A stretch of 36,227 bases of DNA. It comes from a virus. Numbering within the stretch: the stretch's first letter is position 1; each line of letters begins with the position of its first letter. A model generated the notes under the pieces. It ran no database searches, had not been told where the DNA came from, and was given only the letters and a program-made list of their open reading frames with translations. Made by a program: the position numbers and the translations under genes. The stretch is taken from IMG/VR virus record IMGVR_UViG_3300031220_000007, positions 1 through 36,227 of that record. The stretch is one strand, 5' to 3'. This document shows, piece after piece, positions 2,366-18,861 of this stretch.

Positions 2366-2872
2366 ATGACCAATTACATCACAGACAAAAACGGAAACCG
2401 TGCAAGTGTGCGTTATTTTGGTTCAAAAGAAGCCGCTGAAGCATCTTTGAAAACATTAATAAATTGCACAAATTGCACAGATTGCAGATATTGCACAGAT
2501 TGCACAGATTGCACAAATTGCACAAATTGCACAAATTGCACAGATTGCACAAATTGCACAGATTGCAGATATTGCACAGATTGCACAGATTGCACAGATT
2601 GCAGATATTGCATAAATTGCACAAATTGCACAAATTGCACAGATTGCAGATATTGCGCAAATTGCACAGATTGCGCAAATTGCACAAATTGCACAGATTG
2701 CATAAATTGCATAAATTGCACAAATTGCACAAATTGCACAGATTGCAGATATTGCATAAATTGCACAAATTGCACAAATTGCACAGATTGCAGATATTGC
2801 ACAAATTGCACAAATTGCACAGATTGCACAGATTGCACAGATTGCACAGATTGCACAAATCGAAACCTCTAA
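2366..2872 (+). CDS. Cysteine-triplet repeat protein, N-terminal part (frameshifted)
   Basis: The ATG lies 12 bases after the AAGG of the repeated leader. Residues 1-32 (MTNYITDKNGNRASVRYFGS onward) form the conserved head of a phage and prophage family that I recall. Residues 33-163 are 44 consecutive units with Cys at every third position (NCT, DCT, RYC variants). The frame then stops after TNRNL. Immediately downstream, in the +1 frame, a typical folded tail follows (2862-3062), so the gene appears to be broken by an indel at the repeat edge. The repeat may bind metal or form a solenoid; this is inference. Functional status is uncertain. Confidence 0.6.
   Translation: MTNYITDKNGNRASVRYFGSKEAAEASLKTLINCTNCTDCRYCTDCTDCTNCTNCTNCTDCTNCTDCRYCTDCTDCTDCRYCINCTNCTNCTDCRYCANCTDCANCTNCTDCINCINCTNCTNCTDCRYCINCTNCTNCTDCRYCTNCTNCTDCTDCTDCTDCTNRNL
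2462..2859. repeat. 9-bp tandem repeat tract inside the Cys-triplet gene
   Basis: About 44 degenerate 9-bp units (TGCACAGAT, TGCACAAAT, TGCAGATAT, TGCATAAAT) run head to tail. All units are multiples of three, so gain or loss of units keeps the frame. Other frames through the tract (QSV, NLC or LHK repeats, both strands) are artefacts. Such tracts are prone to copy-number change and to assembly errors. Confidence 0.9.
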
Positions 2873-3062: not shown

Positions 3063-3261
3063 CAAAGCAGTTGAAACCGCTTGGTTAATATTCAACCAAT
3101 TTGTAAAAACAGACCAGATGCAACATATTGTGTTTGATGGTTTCGCGCGCGTTGGGGAGTATTATCACATCAGCGTTGGCTACACGCTGGAAACCAGACA
3201 ACACGCAGTGTTTGAAATACAATGCCAAACTTACAAAATGAAAAGGATGATCACAACATGA
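3055..3261 (+). CDS. Hypothetical protein upstream of thyX, 68 aa
   Basis: The ATG at 3055 overlaps the stop of the out-of-frame domain (ATGGATAA). An upstream TTG at 3031 is less likely. The sequence starts MDNKAVETAWLIFNQF and has a GEYYHISVGYTLETRQH beta-rich centre. Its TGA (3259-3261) overlaps the thyX ATG (ATGA), and the AAGGATGA ribosome binding site for thyX lies within its last codons. Unknown function; coupling suggests co-expression with thyX. Confidence 0.6.
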   Translation: MDNKAVETAWLIFNQFVKTDQMQHIVFDGFARVGEYYHISVGYTLETRQHAVFEIQCQTYKMKRMITT

Positions 3262-5036
3262 AATTAACACCTGAACAGAAAACACAAATCTCCGCTTCAC
3301 GTGACAACCAACAAATGACACGGCGCGCAATTTCACCAGGAATGGAAAAACACCTACACACCGCTCACCCCGTCTTAGATCACGGTTTTGTGCGTGTGGT
3401 TGATTATATGGGTAATGACGAAGCGATTGCACAGGCCGCGCGGGTTAGCTATGGAACCGGAACAAAAACCACACAAGATGACGCCGGATTAATTCGATAC
3501 CTTATGCGTCATTGGCACAGTACACCATTTGAAATGTGCCTTAGTGGCGATACAAAAGTACCACATTTTGCACCATCCGGTGTTTCCGTGAAATGGTACA
3601 CAATGAGAGAATTAGCTGAAGCATTTGAAGTTGGCGGTAAAGAAAATTCTTGGGTCAAAATTTTAAAAATTAGAACGGTAAACCCAACAACAGGTGTTGT
3701 GACAGGAACAAAAATTAAAAACGCTTGGAAAACCGGAGTTCGTTCCGTTTATAGGATTACCACCGGAGCGCCGTTTTTCCGGTCAATTAAAGTAACAGAT
3801 AATCACAGAATTATGACACCTAATGGATTTGGAACATTAGCGGACGGTTTGAAAATCGGAAGCGAAGTAATGTTGAATGGTTCAAAATGTTATGGTGCCG
3901 ATATTGTTTCTGAGATTGTAAGGCGGCGTGACGCTGGTGAAACTCAAAAGCAAATTCATTCCGCTATGGGTGTTGCACCAGCGACAATAACAAAATACGC
4001 GGGGAGAATGATTGCAACAGGTACTCACACGATTATGAACCCTGACAACAGGCGAGTTGCACCTGAAGATCAAAAAGACGTGAGACACATCACACGTTCG
4101 ATGTATCCTAAGATCGGAACTTGTGAAACACTTGGTTGTAGTGAAAAAGCCACAGACAGACATCACATTGACGAAAATCCGGCAAATAACTTGCGTGAAA
4201 ATGTTTCTTTCTTGTGCGCCAAACATCACAGACACGTCCACACCAACGGTTTGTTGAGCAAAGCTATTTCTTGCAAAATTGCAAAAATTGAATACGTTGG
4301 TGTTGAAGATGTTTACGATTTGGAAACCGTTGATAGTAATCACACTTTTGTAGCCGAAGGAATAATTGTTCACAATTGCGAAATAAAATTGCACGTTAAG
4401 TTGCCTGTATTTGTTGCGCGCCAATGGATACGCCACCGCACCGCGAATGTAAACGAATACAGCGCGCGCTATTCAATTCTGGACCGTGAATTTTATTTTC
4501 CAGAACCGGAACAAGTGCAAGCGCAATCAACAACAAATGCACAGGGTAAATCAGGTGCCGTTGATCCAAAACACATTGAAGATTGGTTGTGTGATAGCAA
4601 AGAAGCATGTGAAACGGCTTACGATAACTATCAACACGCTCTGCATGATGCTGGTGAAAGCAATCAAAACGGTTATGGAATTGCGCGTGAACTCGCCCGC
4701 ATCAACCTACCTGCAAACATCTACACACAATGGTATTGGAAAGTTGATTTGCACAATCTTTTCCACTTTTTGAGATTGCGCGCGGATGCACATGCACAAT
4801 ATGAAATTCGTGTTTATGCTGATTTGATTTGCAAGCTGGTAGCAGATTGGGTGCCTGAAGCGTATGCAGCGTTCGAAGAATACCGTTTGAGCGGCGCACA
4901 GCTATCACACAGCGGCCTAGAGGCTGTTCAGGCTATGTTGCGCGGGGAAACTGTCACAAGGCACACAGCAGGCATGTCAGCAGGCGAGTGGCGCGAATTT
5001 CAGGCTGTGATTGACAGTAAAGCGCAACCCGTATAA
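3258..5036 (+). CDS. thyX: Flavin-dependent thymidylate synthase ThyX with intein
   Basis: Makes dTMP from dUMP using FAD, NADPH and methylene-tetrahydrofolate, supplying thymidine for phage DNA. The ATG at 3258 has AAGGATGA 7 bases upstream and overlaps the previous stop. The 592-residue precursor holds an intein at residues 94-373; the spliced product would be about 312 aa. The signature RHR-x7-S appears as RHRTANVNEYSARY at residues 392-405. The later NLFHFLRLRADAHAQYEIR segment also fits the family. The intein follows HSTPFEM, a conserved active-site stretch. It is the last gene of the left + operon, followed by hairpins at 5044-5134. Confidence 0.95.
   Translation: MKLTPEQKTQISASRDNQQMTRRAISPGMEKHLHTAHPVLDHGFVRVVDYMGNDEAIAQAARVSYGTGTKTTQDDAGLIRYLMRHWHSTPFEMCLSGDTKVPHFAPSGVSVKWYTMRELAEAFEVGGKENSWVKILKIRTVNPTTGVVTGTKIKNAWKTGVRSVYRITTGAPFFRSIKVTDNHRIMTPNGFGTLADGLKIGSEVMLNGSKCYGADIVSEIVRRRDAGETQKQIHSAMGVAPATITKYAGRMIATGTHTIMNPDNRRVAPEDQKDVRHITRSMYPKIGTCETLGCSEKATDRHHIDENPANNLRENVSFLCAKHHRHVHTNGLLSKAISCKIAKIEYVGVEDVYDLETVDSNHTFVAEGIIVHNCEIKLHVKLPVFVARQWIRHRTANVNEYSARYSILDREFYFPEPEQVQAQSTTNAQGKSGAVDPKHIEDWLCDSKEACETAYDNYQHALHDAGESNQNGYGIARELARINLPANIYTQWYWKVDLHNLFHFLRLRADAHAQYEIRVYADLICKLVADWVPEAYAAFEEYRLSGAQLSHSGLEAVQAMLRGETVTRHTAGMSAGEWREFQAVIDSKAQPV
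3537..4376 (+). mobile_element. Intein with HNH homing endonuclease in ThyX
   Basis: 280 codons in frame. The first residue is Cys in CLSGDTKV (block A), with a VTDNHRIMTPNG segment matching block B. The end has VYDLETVDSNHTFVAEG (block F) and terminal IIVHN followed by Cys (+1, TGC 4377-4379). All residues needed for splicing are therefore present. A resolvase-like HTH (ETQKQIHSAMGVAPATITKY) precedes an HNH-type segment with GCSEKATDRHHIDENPANN and FLCAKHHRHVH, including the paired Cys and His residues. This points to an active, mobile intein. Confidence 0.92.
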
Positions 5037-14025: not shown

Positions 14026-14712
14026 ATGAACAGCGTAAGCGTAACACTTAAATTTTCCAGCCTTGCCGCGATGATTGCCCATTTTTCCGGCGATACATCA
14101 GCACAACCCGTTTTTACCAGCGTCAACACACCCGCGCATGATGACGAAAATGACATGGCGGTAAATATGTACGGGTCATCACCGGACGAAGATGACGAAA
14201 CCCTGAACACAGCACCGCCCGCAACCGATAGCGCAGGCATGCCTTGGGATGAACGTATTCACGCACCATCCAAGGGAACCATCAAGGACGGAACCTGGCG
14301 CGCGAAAAAAGGTGTTTCGGATGAACTGAAGGCGCAAGTTACCGCAGAATTGAGCGCAACCACAGCGCCACCCATGCCCACGGCACAACCGACACCGCAA
14401 GCAACCACAGCGCCACCCATGCCCACGGCACAACCGACACCGCAAGCAACCACAGCGCCACCCATGCCCACGGCACAACCGACACCGCAAGCAACCACAG
14501 CGCCACAAAGTGAATTCCAATCGTTCATGGAAAAGATGCAACCGATTATGCAATCTGGTGCAGTTGATGCTGCATATTTGTCCGGTTTGACAAGTGAAAT
14601 TGCGGGTGCGTTTGGTCAACCGTTGAGCGCAATCACAGATATTGCAAGCAATCCGCAAATGATCAATTTTGCAATTCAGGCAATGCAACGCGATGGAAAA
14701 TGGACCGCTTAA
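14026..14712 (+). CDS. Proline-repeat replication-module protein, 228 aa
   Basis: The ATG at 14026 follows ACAGGACAAAACAAA. The longer frame from 13789 would cross the promoter region and is rejected. Residues about 72-105 (GMPWDERIHAPSKGTIKDGT, then WRAKKGV) form a motif common in phage replication-region proteins. It is followed by three exact 15-residue Pro/Ala/Thr repeats (APPMPTAQPTPQATT) and a partial fourth. The C-terminal part is helical. It is probably a scaffold or regulatory partner of the exonuclease/SSB genes that follow; the function is unknown. Confidence 0.7.
   Translation: MNSVSVTLKFSSLAAMIAHFSGDTSAQPVFTSVNTPAHDDENDMAVNMYGSSPDEDDETLNTAPPATDSAGMPWDERIHAPSKGTIKDGTWRAKKGVSDELKAQVTAELSATTAPPMPTAQPTPQATTAPPMPTAQPTPQATTAPPMPTAQPTPQATTAPQSEFQSFMEKMQPIMQSGAVDAAYLSGLTSEIAGAFGQPLSAITDIASNPQMINFAIQAMQRDGKWTA
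14356..14506. repeat. 45-bp coding tandem repeat, 3.4 copies
   Basis: Exact copies at 14356-14400, 14401-14445 and 14446-14490, with a partial copy at 14491-14506. The copies are identical at the base level, so the expansion is recent. The unit is a multiple of three and encodes a flexible Pro-rich linker. Confidence 0.9.
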
Positions 14713-14713
14713 A

Positions 14714-15826
14714 ATGATTGATGTCATTGCAACAGATTTGCCGCGTTTGATTGCTTGCAATGGTTCTAACTCTATGGCGGTATTCAAACCCGCCACAGAG
14801 GACGCCGCCGCAATTATTCGTGACGAAGGTATAGCCGCACATGAAATGGCTGTTCTGTCTCACAACGGAACACCAGATGAAAAGCTAATCGGAAAACAAG
14901 CGTCAAATGGCGTGTTTATGACTGAAGATATGTTAGACGCAGTTTCGGAATATCTTGATTACATTAACAAACATGAACCTTACATTCCGTTAATGCAAGA
15001 AATGGAAATTGACACATCACATCAAAATGGTGATTTGTACCGTGTAAATGGTCGCGCCGATAACATCACACACACCAGCGATAATGTTCTGTTTATTGAT
15101 GATTTTAAACACGGTTATCGCATTGTAGAACCGTTGATGAATTGGACGTTAATCAGTCACGCAATCGGATACGTTCTGAACAATCCAGATCAAGAGCCGC
15201 CTAGTCGTTTTGTGTTTTCCATAATCCAACCGCGCGCAATCCATCGTGATGGACCAATTAGAACTTGGGAAGTAACCCGCGAACAGTTTTACATTTATTG
15301 GTCACATTTGATTGATGAATTATCGGACCTTAAAAATGAATTAAACACTGGTGATCATTGCAAACGCTGCCCGTCTTTGGTTTACTGTAACGCAGCAACG
15401 CAAGCCGGATACAATGCTTTGGAGGTTTCCGATATTGTTTTTCACGAAGAATTGTCAAATGAAGAATTGTCAAAATCTATGGATTTGTTGAGCGTCGCAA
15501 TCAAAAGATCGCAAAACAAATTAGAGGCATTAGAAGGTTTAGCACTTCACAAAATTAAAAACGGTGAGGTTGTTGAAAATTACACGCCTGAAAACAGCTT
15601 AGGAAACAAAACATGGCTTGGTTATGTAAACTCCGCTCTTATTAAATCTCTAACTGGTGTTGATATATCATCGCAAAAAATGATAACACCAGCACAGGCA
15701 ATCAAAAACAATGTTCCGAAAGAACTTGTTGAAGGTTTGACACATCGCCCTAACAGGGGTGTAAAGTTGAAACGAATAACTGCAAACGAAAAAGCAAGCA
15801 AAATGTTTGCTAAATTGAAAGGTTGA
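14714..15826 (+). CDS. Cas4/DUF2800-like PD-(D/E)XK exonuclease, 370 aa
   Basis: The chosen start ATG 14714 follows the previous stop by one base. An ATG at 14693 would add seven residues overlapping the upstream gene. The segment NGRADNITHTS to NVLFIDDFKHGYR gives the D...D-x-K core of PD-(D/E)XK nucleases. The later HCKRCPSLVYCNAA holds three of the four Cys expected for an Fe-S cluster as in Cas4/AddB-type DUF2800 enzymes. It probably resects DNA ends for recombination together with the SSB encoded just downstream. The 3' end is four bases before the SSB ATG. Confidence 0.85.
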   Translation: MIDVIATDLPRLIACNGSNSMAVFKPATEDAAAIIRDEGIAAHEMAVLSHNGTPDEKLIGKQASNGVFMTEDMLDAVSEYLDYINKHEPYIPLMQEMEIDTSHQNGDLYRVNGRADNITHTSDNVLFIDDFKHGYRIVEPLMNWTLISHAIGYVLNNPDQEPPSRFVFSIIQPRAIHRDGPIRTWEVTREQFYIYWSHLIDELSDLKNELNTGDHCKRCPSLVYCNAATQAGYNALEVSDIVFHEELSNEELSKSMDLLSVAIKRSQNKLEALEGLALHKIKNGEVVENYTPENSLGNKTWLGYVNSALIKSLTGVDISSQKMITPAQAIKNNVPKELVEGLTHRPNRGVKLKRITANEKASKMFAKLKG

Positions 15827-15830
15827 TTAA

Positions 15831-16715
15831 ATGGTTACTGAAGTAAAAGGTACAATTGTTGGGCGTTGCGTTTGGGGTGATGTTGGTAAACCCAAACCAA
15901 AGATTGATTTGGATACAAAGCAACCCGTTTTGAAAGACGGTCAACCCGTTATGCAAACTGCGTTTGGTTTGGCTTTTGACAAAGCACAATTTGCTGAACA
16001 CATTTGGCCTTACATGGCTAGTGAAGCGGCAACAGCATTTCCTAACGGTACACCGCCCCAATTTTCATGGAAATATATTGACGGTGACACAACCGACAAG
16101 CAAGGAAAACCATATTCCGCGCGTGAAGGGTATGGCGGTTGCATTGTTCTTACTGTCAAAACTGAAGCGTTCTCACCACCTGTTTACGCTTTTGAAAATG
16201 GTTCATACCGTCAAATGCAACCACACGAATTCAAAACAGGCGATTATTTTGCAATTGATCTGAAATTGCAAGTAAACGTGCCAACAAATCGGACGCACAC
16301 ACCAGGGCTTTACGTCAACCCCGAGGGTTTGTTGTTTTTCCAAGCTGGCCCTGCAATTATGAACAGTGCCAGTCCTGAAGATATGTTTAGCGGTGTTCGC
16401 TCACAGCTTGCGTTACCACCTGGTGCGCCAACTATGCAATTGCCAGCAAGCAACATGCCACAGGGCCAGCCGCAAATGCAGCCACAGGGCCAGCCACAGG
16501 GCCAGCCACAGGGCCAGCCACAGGGCCAGCCGCAAATGCAGCCACAGGGCCAGCCGCAAATGCAGCCACAGGGCCAGCCGCAAATGCAGCCACAGGGCCA
16601 GCCGCAAATGCAGCCACAGGGCCAGCCACAGGGCCAGCCACAGGGCCAGCCGCAAATGCAGCCAGCACACGGTTTTGCACAGGGTCCAGGCAGCACCCAA
16701 ACCCCAAACGGCTAA
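15831..16715 (+). CDS. DUF2815-like ssDNA-binding protein with Gln-rich tail, 294 aa
   Basis: Start ATG 15831 has AAGG about 9 bases upstream. The first 190 residues (TIVGRCVWGDVGKPKPKIDL, QTAFGLAFDK, then PGLYVNPEGLLFF) match the phage DUF2815 family, a gp2.5-like OB fold that coats single strands. The tail from about residue 205 is a Gln/Pro-rich linker made of repeated QGQPQMQP units. The frame ends TQTPNG at 16715. Just before the stop lies the heptamer C CCA AAC followed by a strong hairpin; a -1 shift there would replace the last residue or two by a Cys/His-rich extension. See the separate frameshift entry. Confidence 0.88.
   Translation: MVTEVKGTIVGRCVWGDVGKPKPKIDLDTKQPVLKDGQPVMQTAFGLAFDKAQFAEHIWPYMASEAATAFPNGTPPQFSWKYIDGDTTDKQGKPYSAREGYGGCIVLTVKTEAFSPPVYAFENGSYRQMQPHEFKTGDYFAIDLKLQVNVPTNRTHTPGLYVNPEGLLFFQAGPAIMNSASPEDMFSGVRSQLALPPGAPTMQLPASNMPQGQPQMQPQGQPQGQPQGQPQGQPQMQPQGQPQMQPQGQPQMQPQGQPQMQPQGQPQGQPQGQPQMQPAHGFAQGPGSTQTPNG
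16461..16665. repeat. 12-bp/24-bp coding repeat in the SSB tail
   Basis: CAGGGCCAGCCA and CAGGGCCAGCCG-CAAATGCAGCCA units alternate about 13 times. They encode a Gln/Pro linker in frame 0; the same DNA gives AAGP or HRAS-type repeats in other frames, which are artefacts. In-frame units make the linker length free to vary. Confidence 0.85.
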
Positions 16716-16813
16716 AGGGGTGCAATCTTTGCGGTGCTTTTCATGGTGAGAAGTGCCGCAACAGAACCGGAATTGAATATGATGAAGGTCTTGACGATTG
16801 CATCCCCTTTTGA
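16703..16813 (+). other. Candidate -1 programmed frameshift signal with C-terminal extension
   Basis: At 16703-16709 the bases read C CCA AAC in the SSB frame, an exact X XXY YYZ slippery heptamer. After 4 bases the arm AAAGGGG-TGCAATC (16714-16727) can pair with GATTGCA-T-CCCCTTT (16796-16810): 14 base pairs with one bulged T and a 68-base loop. In the -1 frame 34 codons follow (RLKGCNLCGAFH, then GEKCRNRTG, ending DDCIPF) to TGA at 16811-16813. No ATG, GTG or TTG near the repeats starts this frame. The extension contains C-x2-C-x3-H-x3-C, near a zinc knuckle. Function is predicted, not shown. Confidence 0.5.
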
Positions 16814-16833: not shown

Positions 16834-18861
16834 ATGAACCTATCGCAAGCAATAGTTTATGACATAGAAACTTTCCCAAATGTGTTCACTCTACATGCGG
16901 AAATGCTCAATTCTGACACTTCTCAAACTTGGGAAATAAGCCACCGCCGCGATGATCGGTTGCAATTGTTTGCTTGGTTCACACAATTGCAACAAACACA
17001 AACACCAATGATCGGTTTCAACAGCGAACATTTTGACTATCCGGTTATTCACTGGTTATTTAAAAATCCCAATGCAACAGTTGAACAGATTTACGAATTC
17101 GCAATGCGGATTATTAAAAGCTTTGATCGGTTTGAGTTTGCGGTGTGGCAAAATGAACGGTTTGCACCGCAAATTGATTTGTTCAAAATTCATCACTTTG
17201 ACAACCGTGCAAAAACTACCAGCTTAAAAGCATTGCAAATTAACATGCGGTCCAAAAGCATTGTTGACGTGATCGGAACAGAGATAGAATTAGGGTCAAA
17301 CCTTACAGATGATCAGATTGACCGCGTGTTAATTCCCTACAACATTCACGATGTTAAAGAAACAAAGAAATTCGCTTGGTTTTCTATGCCAGCAATTGAA
17401 TTCAGAATTGGTTTGATTGCCTCACTACCTGGCGATGTTCTGAACTTTAACGATACAAAAATTGGCGCTAAGTTGCTGGAAAACAGGCTTGGTGATGATG
17501 TTTGCTATGACCGTGACCAGAATAACCGTAAAGCAAAACGCCAATCATTCCGCAGTGAAATTGTGTTGAGTGATATTATTTTCCCATATATCAAATTTAA
17601 AAATCCAGAATTTAGTCGCGTCCTGACATGGATGAAAACGCAAAAATTAACTAGTGCTGATATTGATGACCCTGAAGCGGATTTAGTAACCAAAGGTGTT
17701 TTTAAAGGTGTGTCTGCAAATGTTGGTGGAATGGATTTTCATTTTGGTACAGGCGGAATTCACGGCTCTATTTCAAAACAATTGGTGCGTTCAACAAACC
17801 AATTGCAAATCAGAGATATTGACGTTGCTTCGCTTTATCCATCAATTGCAGTTGTGAACAATCTAACACCCGCACATTTAGGTGAACATTTTGCGCGCGA
17901 ATTCAACCAACTTTTGATTGACCGCAGAACACACAAAAAAGGGACGGTCGAAAACGCCTCACTAAAGCTTGCGGCAAACGGAACATACGGTAATAGTAAC
18001 AGTAAATTTAGTGTTTTTTATGACCCTAAATTTACAATGTCTATCACAATAAATGGGCAATTGTTGCTTTGCATGTTAGCGGAATGGCTTGTAGATATTC
18101 CGACTTTTCAATTTGTTCAAATCAACACCGATGGTATAACATATCGAATTGACCGCGATTATGAACCTGAAGCGGCGCGTATTTGTAAAATGTGGGAAGA
18201 TTACACACACCTTGTTTTAGAGGGTGCAGACTATTCGAGAATGTGGATTAGGGACGTGAACAACTATGTTGCTGAAACACCGGACGGAAAACTAAAGCAA
18301 AAAGGCGCGTATTGGCACCCCAGCCCGCTCAACTTTGCGGAGAGTATCAGCACAGCAGGGCCACCCGCCTGGCATAAGGATTTTAACCCCACAGTAGTAA
18401 CACGCGCCGCCGTAGCAGCTATGACGCAAGGCATAGAGCCTGAAGCTTTCATGCGCGCTCAACATGACCCGTTTGAATTCGTGTGCAGGGTGAAGGTTGA
18501 CCGTGCATCTAAACTAATGTGGGGCGGTCAACAGGTTCAAAGTACATCACGGTATTTTGTAGCGCGCAATGGTCACACAATGAAGAAAATCAGCCCACCA
18601 AAAGACCCCGCGACACTAGGTCATTTTAAGCGCGCCAACAAACTGACAGACCAATTTTTTAACAGCGTTATTGATGAGATTGGAATAGATGTTTGGGATG
18701 AACGGATACACACAAAGAATAGAAGCCGTGTAACAATTCGGGAAACATCAATCCAAGCTGGTCAACAATTAGTGGTTTGTAATGACATTGATGATTTTGA
18801 TTTTGCAAATTTGAATTTAGACTGGTATGTTAATGAGGCGCGAAAGTTAATTATCGTGTGA
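16834..18861 (+). CDS. Family-B-type DNA polymerase, 675 aa
   Basis: Replicative polymerase with proofreading. Exo I YDIETFPN lies at residue about 9, Exo II FNSEHFDYP at about 63, and Exo III-like PYNIHDVKE near 170. Polymerase motif A is DIDVASLYPS (about 328), motif B KLAANGTYGNSNS (about 380) and motif C INTDGI (about 430). Motif C has Asn where most family-B enzymes have the first Asp of DTD. The protein is shorter than cellular family-B enzymes but usual for phage versions. It follows the SSB gene and its hairpin and overlaps the minus-strand gene at 18847 tail to tail. Confidence 0.9.
   Translation: MNLSQAIVYDIETFPNVFTLHAEMLNSDTSQTWEISHRRDDRLQLFAWFTQLQQTQTPMIGFNSEHFDYPVIHWLFKNPNATVEQIYEFAMRIIKSFDRFEFAVWQNERFAPQIDLFKIHHFDNRAKTTSLKALQINMRSKSIVDVIGTEIELGSNLTDDQIDRVLIPYNIHDVKETKKFAWFSMPAIEFRIGLIASLPGDVLNFNDTKIGAKLLENRLGDDVCYDRDQNNRKAKRQSFRSEIVLSDIIFPYIKFKNPEFSRVLTWMKTQKLTSADIDDPEADLVTKGVFKGVSANVGGMDFHFGTGGIHGSISKQLVRSTNQLQIRDIDVASLYPSIAVVNNLTPAHLGEHFAREFNQLLIDRRTHKKGTVENASLKLAANGTYGNSNSKFSVFYDPKFTMSITINGQLLLCMLAEWLVDIPTFQFVQINTDGITYRIDRDYEPEAARICKMWEDYTHLVLEGADYSRMWIRDVNNYVAETPDGKLKQKGAYWHPSPLNFAESISTAGPPAWHKDFNPTVVTRAAVAAMTQGIEPEAFMRAQHDPFEFVCRVKVDRASKLMWGGQQVQSTSRYFVARNGHTMKKISPPKDPATLGHFKRANKLTDQFFNSVIDEIGIDVWDERIHTKNRSRVTIRETSIQAGQQLVVCNDIDDFDFANLNLDWYVNEARKLIIV

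Follow-up and report, generated by a model that had tools for sequence, protein, structure and literature searches.

Does the gene for the single-stranded DNA-binding protein (SSB) of this phage end at its stop codon, or do some ribosomes leave its frame just before the stop and add a further C-terminal segment? The question arises from a 36,227-nt stretch of viral DNA (positions 1 to 36,227 of IMG/VR record IMGVR_UViG_3300031220_000007, hereafter the window), for which an original prediction, made from the letters alone, had proposed a programmed -1 frameshift that gives the SSB a zinc-knuckle-like tail. We examined the gene, its relatives and the RNA around its end.

The SSB gene and its -1 extension

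The gene and its two neighbors are arranged as follows:

14669..15826, + strand: exonuclease (DUF2800), the neighbor upstream of SSB
15831..16715, + strand: SSB gene, with a zero-frame product of 294 aa that matches PHROG 7011 (Gp2.5-like ssDNA-binding protein) at E 2e-45
16834..18861, + strand: DNA polymerase, the neighbor downstream, starting 20 nt after the tail

The SSB consists of an OB-fold core (residues ~1-200) and a linker of Q/P/M/G-rich repeats that runs to a terminal TPNG. A Pfam search with the protein gave no family match at E 0.001. An AF2 model based on 27 aligned relatives, in an alignment from which the RHph_X2_24 row was left out, had a pLDDT of 92.9, and its Foldseek matches were the DUF2815 structure 4klk (E 2e-9), the Enc34 SSB 5odl (4e-8) and T7 gp2.5 1je5 (4e-6). 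As modeled, the protein qualifies as an SSB of the DUF2815/gp2.5 type with a gp2.5-type OB fold. Within the linker, positions 16440-16670 consist of short repeats encoding QGQP/QMQP in which the reading frame is kept; several related contigs stop at these repeats, which perhaps break assembly.

In a comparison of four T7-type SSBs with known structures, each has a long acidic tail at its end; in SSBs of the T7 gp2.5/Enc34 type this C-terminal tail contacts replication partners, and such a tail has been described as a hallmark of every prokaryotic and phage SSB (PMC5686142). The window SSB has the same fold as these proteins, yet its ordinary product does not carry the acidic tail of its class: there are no acidic residues among its last 40, and the acid lies in the -1 tail only. 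Zero-frame products across the tailed phages described below have 0-3 acidic residues per 40 C-terminal aa. Thus, whereas in T7 gp2.5 and Enc34 every molecule bears the acidic tail, here it would be borne by the recoded product alone, with four Cys before it.

The zero frame ends ...CAA ACC CCA AAC GGC TAA, and three features define the proposed site:

16703..16709, + strand: slippery heptamer C CCA AAC (the -1 site), in register and one codon before TAA
16713..16715, + strand: zero-frame stop codon TAA of SSB
16709..16813, + strand: -1-frame extension RLKGCNLCGAFHGEKCRNRTGIEYDEGLDDCIPF plus its TGA stop, with equivalents in 22 other distinct phages

The position and register of the heptamer were as predicted, and so was a -1 frame that continues for 34 codons past it to the TGA at 16811-16813 without a start codon of its own. 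This frame is in fact open from 16391, the last stop before the tail being at 16388, and no ATG, GTG or TTG follows that stop. The tail reads PKRLKGCNLCGAFHGEKCRNRTGIEYDEGLDDCIPF up to its stop codon, with DDCIPF as its last residues. A single copy of CCCAAACGGCTAA is present in the window, against none in 100 shuffles, and only 2 in-frame heptamers of the form X_XXY_YYZ are present in the 885-nt SSB gene. To our knowledge C CCA AAC is not counted among the strongest bacterial -1 sites, and because of this the efficiency of frameshifting may be low.

Equivalent tails in relatives and three decoding routes

Relatives were collected from IMG/VR, by way of the neighboring polymerase and by alignment of the SSB core, and from GTDB genomes, which yielded one contig, filed under uncultured Glaciecola. 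Our initial viral-contig scan, initial genome-contig scan and plasmid search were all empty, and when phages were queried by TBLASTN with the tails themselves, the Rhizobium-type tail returned only P106B and X2_24 and the window tail returned nothing. The nearest GenBank relatives are two isolates, the Rhizobium phages P106B and RHph_X2_24, whose SSB cores are 56-58% identical to that of the window. Their tails lie in the +1 frame directly behind the SSB stop, as ...NRAVTCVKCGRPNRYGRPFSNGLCFICEIDDDIPF and ...NRAVVQCVKCGRLNYMGRPLHNGLCFPCEMDDDIPF respectively, each followed by a stop codon. Neither record annotates the tail, which explains an unannotated gap of ~120 nt after SSB in the RefSeq record of P106B.

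Tailed SSBs were found in 23 distinct phages including the window. The tail is in the -1 frame in 5 of these, in the +1 frame in 13, and in frame behind a TGA stop in the remaining 5; an uninterrupted in-frame fusion of SSB and tail was found in none of the 23. Less related SSBs (most below 42% identity; L117 and L118 reach 45%) lack the tail, as do the distant SSBs of Jedunavirus, Silvanus, 7-7-1, MR14, Scuro, vsMR, Vibrio, RHph_Y60 and L018. A -1 shift as the means of reaching the tail is supported for phages of the window's type, but -1 shifting is only one of three inferred routes in the family, and a +1 shift at a CGA-stop pair is the commonest.

Among the -1 phages, the heptamer C CCA AAC is exact in the window, L026 and L034 (3/3 of the window's subtype), and it had not been searched for; the codon between heptamer and TAA is GGC, GGT and CAA, respectively. 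In L106 the site is C CCT TAG, itself of the form X_XXY_YYZ, with the stop as its second codon. The end of L110 reads CCG CGG TAA and contains no recognizable slip site. Despite that absence, the L110 tail (L110:4380-4500, -1 frame) is a homologue of the L027 tail, which lies in the +1 frame. Two further contigs, L128 and L131, were kept outside the 23 and outside the evidence for heptamer conservation because the heptamer was part of the pattern that retrieved them; in both, the frame changes after IPF and six more residues follow (IPFDYALKM, then a stop), and the free terminal Phe is not kept. The missing slip site of L110 and the run-on tails of L128/L131 are exceptions to the recoding scheme that we cannot explain.

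In 13/13 of the +1 phages the final sense codon is CGA, with TAA as the stop in 10 and TAG in 3, and CGA makes up 11% of the Arg codons in the long ORFs of the same phages. These 13 cases share ancestry and are not 13 independent draws; if the shift takes place one codon earlier, part of the CGA conservation could also stem from a conserved +1-frame Asp (GAT). CGA is one of the few codons able to replace GCG in Ty3 +1 shifting, and Listeria phage PSA makes a +1 shift at a Pro codon adjoining a stop (PMC5009743). The SSB +1 relatives resemble +1 systems of the prfB, PSA and Ty3 kind in having a stop in the A site and a weak P-site codon, and differ from them in the uniform CGA-UAA/UAG pair and in a long nested stem inside the tail. 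In the in-frame group the intervening stop is TGA in 5/5.

Two other arrangements near the SSB stop were noted. An HNH-like gene lies between the SSB tail and the polymerase in L024/L025 and in L128/L131, which are of the same phage type and in which the tail no longer stops after IPF but continues with DYALKM. Just after the SSB stop, L124 and L125 have a different, larger ORF (~80 aa) in the -1 frame whose start is an overlapping ATG; it is probably the next gene, overlapping in the ordinary way.

Tail content and RNA structure

Two features of the window tail recur across the family:

16721..16801, + strand: four-Cys putative zinc site, with Cys codons starting at 16721, 16730, 16754 and 16799
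16793..16810, + strand: SSB-Ct-like tip DDCIPF (compare DDDIPF of bacterial SSB)

Exactly 4 Cys are present in every one of the 23 tails. The original prediction had described a C-C-H-C zinc-knuckle-like tail; the four Cys are kept throughout, but the His proposed as third ligand is not conserved and is swapped for other residues in most relatives (for example CDLCGAVTGEQC and CTGCGATQGQPC). Going by sequence, CCHC zinc knuckle is a less fitting description of the tail than a four-Cys module with an acidic, SSB-Ct-like tip. Weak matches to PF24623 (Phage_zn_bind_8) were obtained for 4 of 7 tails (best E 4e-4, 20.6 bits versus a cut-off of 24), the window tail had no match to PF24623, and none of these tails matched a Pfam zinc family above its cut-off. 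The tails share with PF24623 the signature C-x2-C-G-A...C-R, but their C-terminal half is different and all matches fall short of the cut-off. The AF2 model of the tail is only moderate (pLDDT 75.6). The four conserved Cys fit what is expected of a zinc-binding site, and the module is probably one; metal binding itself is an inference that rests on conservation alone.

Bacterial SSB ends in the hexapeptide DDDIPF (SSB-Ct; PMC5872125), through which it recruits proteins of repair and replication. The tails of P106B and RHph_X2_24 end exactly in DDDIPF, directly before the stop, and that of the window in DDCIPF. A tip of the form D-x-[ILV]-[PKR]-[FYW] closes 22/23 tails, E-Y-I-P-F taking its place in L027, and some relatives' tips end in KF, RF, RW, PW or PY. 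In the window, P106B and RHph_X2_24, the defining features of SSB-Ct, terminal acidic residues and a hydrophobic-Pro-Phe end at a free C-terminus, would be present once the tail is translated. Unlike bacterial SSB-Ct, the tip belongs to a gp2.5-type phage SSB and would be reached via recoding, and it is usually D-C-I-P-F, in which the Cys is a putative metal ligand.

When tails were compared, differences at codon positions 1, 2 and 3 of the tail frame numbered 65, 63 and 143, an excess at the third position. This count is descriptive, as it comes from overlapping pairs in protein-based alignments. With the four Cys in 23/23 and the tip, it matches what a -1 cassette should display if its shifted frame is under coding selection.

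The RNA just downstream of the heptamer can form two nested stems:

16714..16727, + strand: 5' arm of the outer stem, the presumed frameshift stimulator; its first two bases belong to TAA
16729..16743, + strand: 5' arm of the inner nested stem
16747..16761, + strand: 3' arm of the inner nested stem
16796..16810, + strand: 3' arm of the outer stem, with one bulge; conserved by compensatory change

The outer stem, a 14-bp pairing with one bulge, is as originally drawn: AAAGGGGTGCAATC pairs with GATTGCATCCCCTTT, leaving one bulged T, 4 nt downstream of the heptamer. The inner stem had been missed. Folding of the 100 nt after the SSB stop gives -41.8 kcal/mol, a stability equaled by 2/723 tiled 100-nt windows on the same strand. 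Between the SSB stop and the tail stop, the window fold has a z of -4.9 against dinucleotide shuffles, and the equivalent stretch folds better than its shuffles in 23/23 phages. Because Cys-Gly and Cys-Arg codons are partly complementary, we added a control in which tails were recoded synonymously. Against this control the window has a z of -4.4, with 0/300 recodings as stable, and all 23 tails are more stable than the recoding mean (mean z -3.39); the weakest results were those of L123 (59/300 as stable) and L121 (15/300).

Compensatory changes support both stems. Among the window, L026 and L034, an outer-stem G-C pair becomes T-A at A7 columns 30/136, and inner-stem T-A pairs become G-C at A7 columns 49/63 and 50/62. 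Compensatory pairs among P106B, X2_24 and L017 fall at A8 columns 41-103, 42-102, 70-97, 73-94, 76-91, 77-90 and 79-88. An Rfam search of the stem region gave no match to a known RNA family. A conserved 3' RNA structure with compensatory change lies a few nucleotides downstream of the slip site, as in a -1 cassette. The proposed check in relatives, for the open frame, the heptamer and the stem, thus came out in favor of the prediction: in the nearest -1-tailed phages the heptamer is unchanged and the stem has compensatory substitutions, and the recurrence of tail, recoding site and stem supports a -1 frameshift in the window.

Mechanism, alternatives and significance

The tail, its conservation, that of the recoding sites and the RNA structure are established at the level of sequence, and together they strongly support a recoding cassette that is conserved in a phage SSB gene, from which production of the fusion is inferred. 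We put the probability that the window SSB gene is recoded, with most ribosomes stopping at TAA 16713 and some slipping -1 to make an isoform with four Cys and an SSB-like tip, at approximately 0.88, expression again being an inference. Under this proposal the majority product would be the 294-aa SSB with its acid-free C-terminal 40 residues. A pause at the nested stem just downstream, suggested by conservation of the structure, would aid a slip on C CCA AAC from CCA AAC to CCC AAA, for which the exact heptamer in three phages is the evidence. Slipped ribosomes would add 34 codons, as inferred from tail conservation and the missing start codons, to give a longer SSB with a junction peptide expected around ...TQTPKRLKGCNLC....

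What the two forms do is likewise inferred. The four Cys may bind zinc, and the DDCIPF tip, to judge by its likeness to SSB-Ct, may dock host proteins that read SSB-Ct or phage replication partners; the tail-less majority would coat phage ssDNA without competing for proteins that read SSB-Ct. Ribosomal recoding as an event, the ratio of isoforms and the identity of any partners are deductions of the same kind.

Could the tail instead be a small protein in its own right, translated after the SSB stop through termination-reinitiation or internal initiation? It does start at that stop, and a GTG precedes the first Cys in the tail frame in 9/23 phages. ATG or TTG, however, precedes it in 0/23, and 14/23, the window among them, have no ATG, GTG or TTG there; a strong stem right behind the stop would presumably hinder initiation, and the conserved C CCA AAC, the 13/13 CGA and the TGA-only in-frame cases would be left unexplained. 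We regard this as improbable. Less credible still is a role of the stems in transcription or in processing of the mRNA (attenuation or 3' end formation), with the open frame a by-product. Very stable hairpins between SSB and polymerase could tune the ratio of the two proteins, but past the window outer stem there is no U-run beyond a TTTT that pairs with or abuts the stem, Rfam offers no match, and four Cys with an SSB-Ct-like tip in 23/23, as well as the third-position bias, would go unaccounted for. Finally, that the tail is the decayed or mis-sequenced end of a once in-frame SSB tail (a pseudogene remnant or contig indels) is scarcely tenable: random indels would give frames that differ between genomes, and nearby repeats could mislead assembly, but two cultured isolates and ~20 independent contigs concur, no fusion is uninterrupted in 23, the Cys and tip are kept while third-position differences pile up, and recoding sites and stems are conserved.

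Three further mechanisms were rejected. Transcriptional slippage lacks a long homopolymer run at any recoding site; bypassing of the hairpin in the style of T4 gene 60 would delete the tip, as the 3' arm of the window stem encodes DCIPF; and code reassignment in the TGA group conflicts with other ORFs there that end in TGA, according to a mechanical ORF list that includes non-genes.

Returning to recoding as the preferred reading, we placed the decoding states (-1, +1, readthrough, none) on a maximum-likelihood tree of 35 SSB cores. The tree requires 6 or more changes of mode, against a mean of 16.5 for shuffled states. Well-supported branches nest the readthrough phages L113/L121 with the +1 phage L116, and the -1 phage L110 with the +1 phages L115/L116, and a change of mode therefore occurs over short distances, in a direction that the tree leaves unresolved. 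The other three readthrough phages, L119, L120 and L123, occupy a long branch of their own, away from L113/L121, perhaps through recombination.

Relatives would obtain the same end by a +1 shift at CGA-UAA/UAG or by UGA readthrough. Because all three routes reach the same end, selection would appear to keep the two-isoform outcome and not one mechanism; that both forms matter is inferred from the switching of modes and the lack of in-frame fusions. It seems likely to us that this module, reached via -1, +1 or readthrough and never fused, reflects a maintained two-isoform SSB with a host-mimicking tip, in which recoding sets the recruitment of host SSB-interacting proteins.

In known systems, a heptamer and a 3' stem drive -1 shifting in E. 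coli dnaX, IS elements and lambda G-GT (PMC5009743). The window resembles these in its X_XXY_YYZ heptamer, short spacer, stable 3' stem and predicted isoform with a shared N-terminus, and departs from them in that the gene is a phage SSB, a stop lies between heptamer and stem, and orthologues use +1 shifting or readthrough. Extensions with phage Ig-like domains are decoded by -1, +1 or in frame in related phages (PMC5009743), and the SSB extension is similarly reached by different routes; here, in contrast, an orthologous tail is attached to one replication gene, no fusion is uninterrupted, and readthrough is among the modes. According to a major review, neither release factor 2 nor antizyme has been seen to exchange frameshifting for readthrough (PMC5009743). 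We found no report of recoding of a phage SSB in open PMC full text, a scope that leaves out most subscription papers and all preprints. Provisionally, then, the general kind is known, namely programmed recoding that yields a C-terminally extended isoform, while the SSB target is new and the interchange of modes unusual.

If expressed, this would be the first recoded SSB within the literature searched, one whose acidic tail appears to be dosed by recoding, and a natural experiment in which -1, +1 and readthrough signals replace one another among related phages without loss of the outcome. The pair of tailed and tail-less SSBs offers a direct test of the role of each form at the phage replication fork, and the recoded-tail pattern can serve annotators as a rule.

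Three other regions of the window deserve mention. A 168-aa ORF at 2366-2872 (+ strand) consists mostly of N-C-T-D-C / C-R-Y-C repeats with dozens of Cys; Pfam gives no match to it, and it could be repeat DNA. A tandem repeat at 132-634 is translated as (LPK)n in one ORF and as (VIL)n in the opposite one, and is likely a variable simple repeat. The ThyX (Thy1) gene at 3222-5036 (+ strand) contains an intein with the boundaries CLSGDTKV...VHNC: the Pfam Thy1 match is split in two, and Intein_splicing scores above its cut-off.
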